Shown: positions 57,202 through 61,062 of the stretch, one piece after another
Layout: each line of letters starts with the position of its first letter
How positions within the stretch are numbered: the stretch's first letter is position 1
Assembly (NCBI GenBank): GCA_029262235.1
Contig: JAJCZU010000004.1
Coordinates: 558,001 to 622,000, forward strand
DNA from: Candidatus Eiseniibacteriota bacterium
GTDB taxonomy: Bacteria; Orphanbacterota; Orphanbacteria; Orphanbacterales; Orphanbacteraceae
Length of the DNA stretch: 64,000 nucleotides
Reading direction: 5' to 3'
Notes under the pieces: generated by a model
Database searches by the model: none
What the model was told of the DNA's origin: nothing
Seen by the model: the letters and a program-made list of their open reading frames with translations, nothing else
Made by a program: the position numbers and the translations under genes

Positions 57202-58281
57202 TTATCCCCCTTCGATCATCCCTGTCGTCTCTTCGAGCGTCGACTGCAGAGCAGCTGACTCCGGGTTCGTTTCCAGTGCGAGCTCGAGTAGCGCGACGGC
57301 CTCCGGGAAGCGGTCCTGATGGATCAGCTGCGAGGCGACGTCAATCGCAACGCCTTCTGAAATGTTGATTTCGAAACCGTAAGTCCCGCTCAATGCACGA
57401 TAGTACTCCCGCACCGCGTCACGACCCCGCTCGGCGATCTCGACGGGCAGGAGACACTCCCGGTACAGAAACGTGAGGCCCGCGAAGAGGCCCTTCGGCA
57501 GGACCGTCGTATGATCTTCGTCTTCCATGACCTCGCATTGCCATCGGATGCCGTCGGGCGCCGACGTTTCGAGCAGCATCGAGAATCGTGCGAGGGCTTC
57601 GCGGCGAAACGGCGTATTGCCTTCCGCGCAGGCGAACAATCCCCTGCCTCGATAGGAGTGAGTCGAAAATGCGTTCGCGGCGAATTTGGAAGCACGCTCG
57701 GAGATCCCGGTGCCGGATGCGATGTAACCCCGGAAGAGGTCGGGTTTCGTAAACAGCATCCAGAGGCTGATGTTCGCCCCGGAGGACCATCCGTAAATCG
57801 TCCGGTGAGGTACCGTCCGGTACGACGCGTCGATCCCGGGAATGAGTTCGCTTTCGATGAACCGCATGAAGCGAACGTAGGCGGCCGTCGTGTCGAAGCT
57901 TACTGTCAGGTCGCGTGTGCGGTCTGTGTTGGGGATGCCGACGACGATCGTTTCCGGCATTCTCCCGGCGAGTTCGCCCGACAGAAAAGCGACGCTTCCG
58001 GCGGCATAGTCGAAGATCCACTCGGCATCGAGCACGTATAAAACGGGATAGGCCCGATCGGAATCTTCGTAGCCGTTCGGAAGAGAAACTCGAATCTGTC
58101 GCTCTTCGTTCAGATGCTCCGAATGAATCGCAATCGTTTCGGTCAGGCTTCCGCCGTTCGAGAGCGCGGCGTGATCGGAGTCGTGCCCGTGTGCCGTCCC
58201 CCTGCCGGGCGCGAGAGCGGCCAGAAGCAGCAGACAGGCGATTGCGGGCAGGTACGATCTCATCAGAGTCATCAGAGACAT
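57202..58281 (-). CDS. Alpha/beta-hydrolase esterase with C-terminal TPR
   Basis: A 359-residue exported esterase of the Fes/IroE/putative esterase type: LNEERQIRVSLPNGYEDSDRAYPVLYVLDAEW, nucleophile elbow GWSSG, a His-containing block (EDEDHTTVLPKGLFAGL) that supplies the catalytic His, then a C-terminal helical repeat (ASQLIHQDRFPEAVALLELALETNPES). Signal peptide around LPAIACLLLLAALAPG. Start codon uncertain: ATGs at 58281, 58272 and 58263 are all possible and the ribosome-binding signals are weak. Substrate could be a siderophore ester or an acyl ester. Its stop is 19 bp from the convergent kinase partner. Confidence 0.8.
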   Translation of the reverse strand: MSLMTLMRSYLPAIACLLLLAALAPGRGTAHGHDSDHAALSNGGSLTETIAIHSEHLNEERQIRVSLPNGYEDSDRAYPVLYVLDAEWIFDYAAGSVAFLSGELAGRMPETIVVGIPNTDRTRDLTVSFDTTAAYVRFMRFIESELIPGIDASYRTVPHRTIYGWSSGANISLWMLFTKPDLFRGYIASGTGISERASKFAANAFSTHSYRGRGLFACAEGNTPFRREALARFSMLLETSAPDGIRWQCEVMEDEDHTTVLPKGLFAGLTFLYRECLLPVEIAERGRDAVREYYRALSGTYGFEINISEGVAIDVASQLIHQDRFPEAVALLELALETNPESAALQSTLEETTGMIEGG

Positions 58282-58315
58282 TCCGTTACCATGGTTCGTG
58301 ATCCTCGCAACGGAA

Positions 58316-59563
58316 TCAGCGTACGCGAACGAAGCGTTCCGTTCTCGATCCATACGCGGTTTCCAGTCGAATGAAGTAGATGCCGGGCGCGACGGCGCGT
58401 CCCGTGGCCGCCGCCCCGTCCCAGTGTATCTCGTGGTTGCCCGCGCGAAAGTGAGCGTTCGCGATCGACTTCACGAGCCGGCCACGCACATCGAAGATGC
58501 GGGCGCTCACGCGTGACTCGCTACGGACGTGAAAACGGAACTTCGCATCCCCGCGGCCGATGGAAGGCACCGGTGGGTACAGAGCGAGATCACGGTCCGC
58601 GTTCGTGTCCGTGTCCGTGCCGCTGCTGACTGCGGTAACGAGCGCAAACGGCGTCTCGCTGGACCATGCGGGCCCCTGCGTGCCCGCGCCGCCGAAGAAG
58701 ATCACGCCGTCGGATGGCCCGCCCGTTGCGCCGGCCGAGTCGCCGAGCGCAATCCCCGCGCCTTCGTTGAAGTGATAGAGCGCGCGCGTGAACAGGTCCG
58801 GAACATGGGGCACTGTCGGTCGCGGGAAATTTCCGTCGTACCGGAGCGTGTCGGAGAGGCGCACCTCGTCGAGCCAGCCGGAATAGTTGATGCCCTGAAA
58901 TCCGTGTTTCTCCGCGCCGAAAACGAGAAAGCGGTCGGAGTTGTCGCACGTGCTCCCGCCGGCGCCGCCGTCCGGGCTGCAGTAATCCCCCGCACCCGCG
59001 CCATCCGGATACGAAACATCACCGCTCGGGCCGAACGTCGCGGGGCCGTCCGCGTCGAGTGCGCCGTCGACATAGATCGACAGGAGCCCGTCCGACTCGC
59101 GCCTCTGCACCGCGACATGATGCCACGCGTCGTCGCGCACGTCCGTCGTTCCGCAGAGCGTGTAGGCGGTCACGTCGCTCGAAACTCCGAACGCGATGCG
59201 TCCGCCGAGCAGCGCGATCCCCCACTTGCGTTCCTGATTGTAGCGATCGCGGTCGATCAGAATATTGCCGTTCACCCAGTCGATCCCGTACCCGCACGAA
59301 AGCGCCGGGTTCGTGTTCTCGGCTGCCGTGCACCGGAGCCAGAAATCGATTGTAAAGTCACCGGCGCCGATGTCGGCGGGAGAGTGGGGTTCGATCTCGA
59401 TCTTCACGCGATCGGGAAACACGAAGTTCTCGCCCGCGCTTCCGCCGTGCCCGTAGAAGCGAAGCGACGCTTCGACCGCGTGCGCGGGAGGGGCGGCAGC
59501 ACCCAGGCAGAGCCAGGCGGTCGCGAATGCGAGGATCTTCGAGTGGGCGGGCGTGTAGTCCAT
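58316..59563 (-). CDS. Secreted LamG/concanavalin-like protein with sorting domain
   Basis: A 415-residue exported protein (signal to about PAHA). The core is a LamG/laminin-G-like jelly roll (FTIDFWLRCTAAENTNPALS, WHHVAVQRRESDGLLSIYVDG, GINYSGWLDEVRLSD, RALYHFNEGAG) that usually binds glycans or forms adhesins. It ends in a FlgD-Ig-like domain (ALYPPVPSIGRGDAKFRFHV...KSIANAHFRAG...HWDGAAATGRAVAPGIYFIRL). No enzyme centre. ATG 59563 has a weak ribosome-binding site. One of five proteins in the window with this sorting domain. Confidence 0.78.
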   Translation of the reverse strand: MDYTPAHSKILAFATAWLCLGAAAPPAHAVEASLRFYGHGGSAGENFVFPDRVKIEIEPHSPADIGAGDFTIDFWLRCTAAENTNPALSCGYGIDWVNGNILIDRDRYNQERKWGIALLGGRIAFGVSSDVTAYTLCGTTDVRDDAWHHVAVQRRESDGLLSIYVDGALDADGPATFGPSGDVSYPDGAGAGDYCSPDGGAGGSTCDNSDRFLVFGAEKHGFQGINYSGWLDEVRLSDTLRYDGNFPRPTVPHVPDLFTRALYHFNEGAGIALGDSAGATGGPSDGVIFFGGAGTQGPAWSSETPFALVTAVSSGTDTDTNADRDLALYPPVPSIGRGDAKFRFHVRSESRVSARIFDVRGRLVKSIANAHFRAGNHEIHWDGAAATGRAVAPGIYFIRLETAYGSRTERFVRVR

Positions 59564-59644: not shown

Positions 59645-60343
59645 ATGGAATGGTACGTGGGCACGAGCGGCTTCAGCTATAAAGAGTGGAAGGGGAATTT
59701 CTACCCCGAGAAGATTCCGGCGAAGGAGATGCTCTCCTATTACGCGGGACGCCTCAAGGCCGTCGAGATCAACAACACGTTCTACCGCCTTCCGAAACGC
59801 GAGCTTCTCGAAGGCTGGGCGGACCAGGTCCCGGAATCGTTCCGCTTTTCGATCAAGGCCTCGCGACGCATCACGCACTTCAAGCGATTGAAAGAGCCGT
59901 ACGACGAAACCGACTATCTGATCGAAACGGTGGGTGCGCTCGGCGCGCGTCTCGGCGTGGTTCTCTTTCAGCTGCCGCCGAACTCCAAACGTGACGACGA
60001 CCGTCTGGCCGCTTTCGTCGCGAACCTTCCCGAAGACTTTCCCGCGACGTTCGAGTTCCGCCACGAATCGTGGAACGATCCGGCGGTGCACGACATTCTG
60101 CGCGGGAAAAACTGCGCGCTCTGCATCGCCGAGTCGGACGACGACGAGCTTGTGGAGTGTGTCGGTACCGCGGACTGGGGTTATCTGCGCCTTCGGAAGA
60201 CGAGTTACGCCGAGAAGGAACTCGAGTCGTGGCGCGATCGCGCGCGCGACCTCGGCTGGAAGCACGCGTTCGTCTTCTTCAAGCACGAGGACGAAGGGAC
60301 GGGGCCGAAGCTCGCCGAACGCTTTCTGGAAATCACCGCCTGA
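59645..60343 (+). CDS. DUF72 family protein
   Basis: A 232-residue TIM-barrel-like protein with the DUF72 blocks VGTSGFSYKEWKGNFYPE, EINNTFYRLP, FRFSIKASRRITH and FEFRHESW near the middle. The family is widespread and has no confirmed activity. The call is by motif. Start ATG 59645; ribosome-binding site weak. It converges with the small RNA unit downstream. Confidence 0.88.
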   Translation: MEWYVGTSGFSYKEWKGNFYPEKIPAKEMLSYYAGRLKAVEINNTFYRLPKRELLEGWADQVPESFRFSIKASRRITHFKRLKEPYDETDYLIETVGALGARLGVVLFQLPPNSKRDDDRLAAFVANLPEDFPATFEFRHESWNDPAVHDILRGKNCALCIAESDDDELVECVGTADWGYLRLRKTSYAEKELESWRDRARDLGWKHAFVFFKHEDEGTGPKLAERFLEITA

Positions 60344-60464
60344 TCATTCCGCCCCGTTCTGGGGATCGCACGGCCCGGCACCGGTTCCGAACACGGAGCC
60401 GCCCAGCCCAATGGTTCTTGTCGGGCCGGACCGATACGAATCCCGCAGAAATCTCCCTGAAACG

Positions 60465-60492
60465 CAAAAAACCCATCGCGGGTGGCGATGGG
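60465..60492 (-). terminator. Rho-independent terminator of the small transcript
   Basis: On the minus strand CCCATCGC-loop-GCGATGGG is followed by TTTTTT (60466-60471). It ends the small transcript and could also stop readthrough from the globin gene. Confidence 0.85.
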
Positions 60493-60521
60493 CTTACAAA
60501 CGTCGCAAATGGGTTCTTGAA

Positions 60522-60608
60522 TCAACACATGCGAACGCAGCCTGCCGCCTTCCCCTCCAGGGAGTGACAACAACACATACAGGTCATCTGGCGGTTCGTG
60601 TTCTTCAT
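60522..60608 (-). CDS. Leaderless Cys-rich micro-ORF (28 residues)
   Basis: An ATG four or so bases after the predicted start site opens a 28-codon frame, MKNTNRQMTCMCCCHSLEG and then a second Cys pair at the end (six Cys in all). The run TGT ATG TGT TGT TGT is unusual in this GC-rich genome. There is no room for a Shine-Dalgarno sequence, so it would be a leaderless mRNA. Leaderless poly-Cys frames that sense cysteine supply are known upstream of sulphur genes in mycobacteria, but here no same-strand gene follows the terminator. It may be a metal-binding micropeptide, an attenuator relic, or chance coding in an sRNA. Confidence 0.35.
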   Translation of the reverse strand: MKNTNRQMTCMCCCHSLEGKAAGCVRMC

Positions 60609-60617
60609 GTTGATTTT

Positions 60618-60646
60618 ACTATAAAGCGTTGCATCCGGTTCGTCAA
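60618..60646 (-). promoter_or_regulatory. Sigma-70-like promoter of the small transcript
   Basis: Minus strand: -35 TTGACG (60641-60646), exact 17-bp spacer, -10 TATAGT (60618-60623). It is the best consensus promoter I see in the window, five of six matches in each hexamer. It lies just after the globin stop codon. Confidence 0.75.
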
Positions 60647-60654
60647 CGCCTTTC

Positions 60655-61062
60655 CTAATAGTGCCTTTTCATGTGGTTGATCACGTGGCCCAGTGTGCTG
60701 AGCCAGGCCTCCTCGATCGTATCGTTCCATTGGCCGTCGAACTCGCTCGCAGTTTCGATCAGTGCGGAAAGCCAGTAGTCGTAGAGTCGGGGTGCGATAT
60801 CCAGGTGATGGCGATCATGCGTTTCGGCGCGTTCCGTAAGCTCTCGGAGAGCGTTCGAGTCGCCCGCCGTCGCGCCCGCGGCCAGGCGAAGCGAGCGAAG
60901 CAACATCCGATTCTGGCGTTCGAAATCCGTGTCTTTGAACTTCTCCCCGATCTCGTCGGAGGCCGCGATAAAGCGCGCGTAGAATGCGGGGATGAACTTC
61001 TCCGACTCCGCGCAGCGGTCCAGGCTGTCCAGAAATCGATCTTTCGGGGTTCTGTCGTTCAT
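60655..61062 (-). CDS. Single-domain bacterial globin
   Basis: A 135-residue globin-like protein: FIPAFYARFIAASDEIGEKFKDTDFERQNRMLLRSLRLA (helices A-E with the CD-loop Phe region), HHLDIAPRLYDYWLSALIETA (F-G helices), and EEAWLSTLGHVINHMKRHY (H helix). The His in THDRHHLDI is the best candidate for the proximal haem ligand. Probably cytoplasmic, with a role in O2/NO binding or sensing; no fused output domain. Start ATG 61062. It is read alone and its end is 9 bases from the -35 of the small RNA promoter. Confidence 0.78.
   Translation of the reverse strand: MNDRTPKDRFLDSLDRCAESEKFIPAFYARFIAASDEIGEKFKDTDFERQNRMLLRSLRLAAGATAGDSNALRELTERAETHDRHHLDIAPRLYDYWLSALIETASEFDGQWNDTIEEAWLSTLGHVINHMKRHY

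Follow-up and report, generated by a model that had tools for sequence, protein, structure and literature searches.

In mycobacteria, short leaderless ORFs carrying polycysteine tracts have been reported to be cysteine-responsive (Canestrari et al. 2020, as cited in PMC9031893 and PMC9094748), while leaders have been listed for mycobacterial cys operons that have no conserved terminator hairpin and for which Rho was suggested (PMC1262725). In Rhodobacterales, the uORFC-8-2 motif, located upstream of cysS, has been predicted to act by ribosome-mediated attenuation (PMC8632094). In addition, the trp attenuator RNA of Sinorhizobium meliloti, rnTrpL (with its peptide, peTrpL), starts at its own ATG, persists as a small terminated RNA and has known targets in trans, with a trp gene still located downstream (PMC7298713).

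The unit described here was found in a stretch of 64,000 nucleotides from Candidatus Eiseniibacteriota bacterium, which was analysed at its full length (the window). It works, or worked, like the known poly-Cys leaders, and its sequence matches no Rfam family. We consider it probable that it belongs to a cysteine attenuator of the ribosome-mediated kind, as a leader left over from an operon that was deleted. With the mycobacterial ORFs, as they are presented in the papers that cite them, it shares a short leaderless frame with contiguous Cys codons, of a kind found ahead of cysteine or sulfur genes. By contrast with the mycobacterial leaders that lack a conserved terminator hairpin, however, it has an intrinsic terminator and appears to have lost its operon. 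The likeness to uORFC-8-2 lies in the presence of Cys codons in a short frame that is followed by an intrinsic terminator. Nevertheless, that motif has two tandem Cys codons, mostly UGC, and precedes cysS, whereas, in another lineage, the leaders considered here (the window unit and two counterparts in relatives, see below) have runs of three to five, mostly UGU, with cysKE or a siroheme/sulfite-reductase operon following those of the relatives.

The unit is on the minus strand, in the 311-nt gap between a globin-like gene and the convergent DUF72 gene (Table 1). An earlier note on this DNA had pointed to a near-consensus promoter without stating its strand, and TTGACG-17-TATAGT is indeed present on the minus strand (60646-60618), where it scores 10/12; no other site in the 64-kb window reaches this score. 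The terminator described in the same note was also recovered, with an 11-bp stem, six T and a folding energy of -17.4 kcal/mol (z = -5.8), as was the observation that no complete gene on the same strand lies between the unit and DUF72. When the gap was shuffled conserving dinucleotides, a 10/12 promoter appeared in 27 of 3000 sequences and a comparable terminator in 17 of 3000, but the two in the proper order in none of the 3000. The existence of a promoter-frame-terminator unit, beyond what chance would produce, is thus confirmed.

Table 1. Features of the unit and of its surroundings (positions in the window).
Feature	Position	Strand	Evidence
Globin-like gene, upstream of the unit, last of the LigD-Ku-TPR-globin run	60655..61062	-	PF00042, below cut-off
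-35 element TTGACG	60641..60646	-	Sequence, shuffles, genome-wide TTGAC-TATAnT-ATG pattern
-10 element TATAGT, 17-nt spacer; predicted start site ~60611	60618..60623	-	Sequence, shuffles
Putative leaderless leader-peptide frame MKNTNRQMTCMCCCHSLEGKAAGCVRMC + stop	60522..60608	-	Sequence; counterparts in G005 and G004
Putative cysteine control codons TGT ATG TGT TGT TGT (codons 10-14)	60567..60581	-	Sequence; aligned with G005 TGT TGT TGT TGT
Predicted antiterminator 5' half GGCGGCAGGCU	60539..60549	-	Nascent-RNA fold; AGGCTGC block common with G005
Intrinsic terminator stem-loop, T-tract 60471-60466	60469..60495	-	11-bp stem + six T; folding; shuffles
Shine-Dalgarno-like AGGGAG before in-frame CTG 60448-60446, possible start of truncated gene	60453..60458	-	Sequence; inference
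Probable relict of cobA 5' end, TRTIGLGGSVFGTGAGPCDP vs SRGSGSGGSVFLLGAGPGDP	60362..60421	-	tblastn; shuffles; control segments
DUF72 gene, convergent, bounds the unit	59645..60343	+	PF01904

The strong promoter would start an RNA almost at the AUG of the short poly-Cys frame. The predicted start site is only 3 nt ahead of the ATG, a spacing that would make the frame leaderless, and its 28 codons with six Cys agree with what the earlier note had described. Its Cys codons include the run C-M-C-C-C at codons 10-14, and five of the six are TGT, while the predicted genes of the window favour TGC (TGC:TGT 134:38, that is, TGT in 38 of 172). Of the 423 frames in the window that begin with ATG and span 20-60 codons, only four have at least six Cys. 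In its codon usage, the frame does not resemble a gene. The stop codon is followed, 26 nt later, by the beginning of the terminator.

The arrangement TTGAC-(17-19)-TATAnT-(5-9)-ATG is found five times in the whole genome (G000) and never in a reversed control. Three of the other four matches start a long gene at exactly that ATG (for a 127-aa protein, an ArsR-type regulator and a 338-aa protein, all named by eye), and the fourth is located a few tens of nucleotides ahead of where an ArsR-type gene probably starts. As the pattern marks gene starts elsewhere in this genome, it supports the promoter and the leaderless reading, although it does not prove them. The loci L077, L078 and L081 of the same genome contain genes that seem to be leaderless, with a near-consensus promoter ending 5-9 nt before the ATG.

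No homologue of the unit, as DNA or as peptide, was found in its own genome, 60 relatives, GTDB contigs, viral contigs, plasmids or phages, and pattern matches in L064-L069 proved to be internal to unrelated frames. Counterparts were instead recovered by their architecture. The phylum is represented in our sample by seven genomes of a single family, in which we looked for an ATG placed 4-10 nt beyond a -10 box, together with three Cys codons. This produced four matches and one control match; two of the four are out of frame, and the two in frame are the window unit and G005:C2:268311. The latter consists of TTGACA-18-TATACT-9-ATG, the frame MNLSHTICCCCLCLRPGEKG, with four consecutive Cys, and the terminator AGCCCACTGCCGGCCCGGCGGTGGC-T7. 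It is followed by genes for a siroheme synthase N-terminal domain, cobA (uroporphyrinogen-III methyltransferase), a sulfite/nitrite reductase and cysH (PAPS/APS reductase). Both leaders carry GGGGAA..GG.GG.AGGCTGC, and their similarity was reached by none of 1000 shuffles in global alignment and by 12 of 1000 in local alignment.

A covariance model built from these two leaders and searched in 31 genomes added one more match that is convincing, at G004:C54:14453 (with E 3e-4 in that genome), where TTGACG-17-TAAACT, a Shine-Dalgarno-led frame (MRTFARGIGCCCCCRRARAAGGRGLI, with five consecutive Cys) and a terminator with seven T precede cysK and cysE. A weak match in G001 corresponds to a leaderless MarR-type gene, and those in G016, G026 and G028 were attributed to chance after inspecting the alignments. 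Counted from the codon that closes the Cys run, the terminator lies 71, 72 and 77 nt away in the three leaders, on which the whole comparison rests, and all three are biased towards TGT. As the genes that follow played no part in the selection of the G005 and G004 matches, their shared context of cysteine and sulfate assimilation is independent support. The intact leaders of G004:C54 (L089 1472-2652) and G005:C2 (L084 1477-3044 / L101 13290-18018) are better objects for testing than the copy in the window.

It could still be argued that the hairpin merely terminates the LigD-Ku-TPR-globin operon and that the promoter and the Cys-rich frame arose by coincidence. The globin stop precedes the hairpin by just 159 nt, a poly-TGT stretch is of low complexity and, as mentioned above, the frame is not gene-like in its codons. 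Nevertheless, the shuffles never combined promoter and terminator, matching leaders precede cys genes in two relatives, and the TGT bias extends to all of them; consequently, we regard coincidence as very unlikely, although the hairpin could also terminate the upstream run.

As the same architecture is found before cysteine genes in two relatives of the family, the window unit is best read as the leader of a cysteine attenuator. What the DNA contains is a promoter, a frame and a terminator, and the cys genes of two relatives are preceded by leaders that resemble this one; from this, we infer transcription, leaderless translation, stalling, an antiterminator switch and a deletion. When Cys-tRNA is plentiful, the ribosome would pass the Cys codons and the terminator would form. 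When it is scarce, the ribosome would stall on the Cys run, freeing GGCGGCAGGCU for pairing with AGCCCAUCGCC, the 5' arm of the terminator, and the polymerase would read on into what, in the relatives, is a cysteine or sulfate-assimilation operon. The poly-Cys run and an intrinsic terminator shortly after the frame are both present in the window unit, while the position before cysteine or sulfur genes is found in G004 and G005 and is absent from the window, where only the probable cobA relict remains. Among the functions that the earlier note had suggested, cysteine sensing is therefore supported, by poly-Cys leaders with terminators placed directly before cysK-cysE (G004) and the siroheme/sulfite-reductase/cysH operon (G005).

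Regarding RNA structure, while the 3' arm of the terminator is still to be transcribed, the best one predicted for the window RNA is precisely the pairing of GGCGGCAGGCU with the 5' arm, and the nascent G005 RNA is predicted to form a matching antiterminator at its AGGCUGC. The strength of the duplex is, however, reached in 74 and 291 of 1000 shuffles (G000 and G005, respectively), and fold prediction found no equivalent at that place in the G004 leader. Since the energy is unexceptional and G004 lacks the pairing at that place, this step of the switch is only a putative one. The long-range complementarity proposed by the earlier note fared poorly: apart from the terminator, the RNA folds no better than its shuffles (z = +1.2 without it and -0.9 for the whole unit). 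A pairing between the start and the end of the ORF was considered as a conserved fold and is predicted in all three leaders, but it is only suggestive, as its energy is matched by 130, 11 and 36 of 1000 shuffles. A covariance search, a method proposed in that note, did recover a third leader with a poly-Cys frame; the conservation of an RNA fold was not supported.

The distance from the terminator to the DUF72 stop is only 125 nt, and this remnant probably holds a relict of the 5' end of cobA. By tblastn, 20 residues, TRTIGLGGSVFGTGAGPCDP, on the same strand as the leader, match SRGSGSGGSVFLLGAGPGDP at the start of the G005 CobA with a score of 60, which was reached by none of 1000 shuffles (maximum 48) and by none of 1340 real segments of equal size that were compared with six operon proteins in turn (maximum 54). 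The relict is nonetheless considered probable rather than certain, because the fragment retrieved no methyltransferases in searches by profile or against PDB sequences. Downstream, sirC, sulfite reductase, cysK and cysE gave no relict above the level of shuffles, and a candidate for cysH (score 47, 4 of 1000 shuffles) was within the range of unrelated segments of the window. The siroheme synthase N-terminal family (TIGR01470) has no match in the genome, which is 95.5% complete. The simplest account seems to be that a siroheme/sulfate operon was deleted and its attenuator left behind. As only a fragment of a first gene, probably cobA, remains before DUF72, the switch would be stranded, and its usual product would be a short terminated RNA of ~145 nt. 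The earlier claim that the unit is not a simple leader would then hold for its present state, although it looks like a leader from which the operon was removed.

The sister species G001 retains the globin, TPR, Ku and DUF72 genes (DUF72 with 97% aa identity) and has no such unit at this place, where a gene for a 502-aa multihaem cytochrome c is located between globin and DUF72 (L104 5466-6974, G001:C203). The similarity between this region and the window stops ~27 nt past the globin stop, and no homologue of the cytochrome was found in G000; consequently, an origin of the Cys codons from such a gene was rejected. On the other side of DUF72, between it and a kinase region, the window contains two overlapping minus-strand genes (57202-59563), an esterase-like one and one for a secreted protein with LamG/FlgD domains. 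As this pair is missing at that place in G001, both sides of DUF72 have been rearranged.

It is also conceivable, although doubtful, that the attenuator outlived its operon by acquiring a new use, either in trans, where it would be a small RNA gated by cysteine or a leaderless mRNA for a peptide, or as a switch antisense to DUF72 and gated by starvation. The first option, in which the stranded leader was kept for a trans activity of the terminated RNA or of the poly-Cys peptide, would explain why promoter, frame and terminator are all intact with the operon gone, and a retained role of this kind is possible given the precedent of the Sinorhizobium trp attenuator. The rnTrpL RNA has a trp gene downstream and known trans targets, and the window unit has neither. 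However, the orphan unit is conserved in no relative, and a recent loss of the operon would account for its intactness equally well, so we consider this option unlikely. The second option, that the attenuator still acts in cis and that read-through under starvation is antisense to DUF72 and may continue to the minus-strand pair 59563-57202, is the least probable of the readings considered here. Although read-through would directly enter the 3' end of the convergent gene, and the next minus-strand gene begins 82 nt beyond it, ~900 nt separate the terminator from that start, and the arrangement is missing in G001, where the cytochrome gene follows DUF72.

Read as a stranded cysteine attenuator, the unit places poly-Cys-frame attenuation, of the type that uses intrinsic terminators, in a lineage of phylum level that is sampled here by seven genomes of one family, with two intact examples, in G004 and G005, that are open to testing. 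It also suggests that a “stand-alone small RNA gene” may arise as a regulatory leader left after the deletion of an operon. RNAs that act in trans could plausibly evolve from such orphan leaders, which are also a reason for caution in the annotation of small RNAs and small proteins.

Two other identities suggested by the earlier note were not sustained. A metal-binding micropeptide is not supported, as the Cys spacing differs among the frames of G000, G004 and G005 while the run itself is kept, and MKNTNRQMTCMCCCHSLEGKAAGCVRMC has no match among peptide families. A 6S-like RNA was discarded, as the unit has no Rfam match at gathering thresholds (RF00013 included) and the 6S candidate of this genome is located elsewhere; with a relaxed E-value, the unit matched only ar14 and two human lncRNA models, weakly and far below the cut-off. 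The probable 6S RNA is found at G000:C4:1151075-1151269 (L075), with 36 bits, a score below the Rfam cut-off in this genome for a family whose matches in three relatives are above it.
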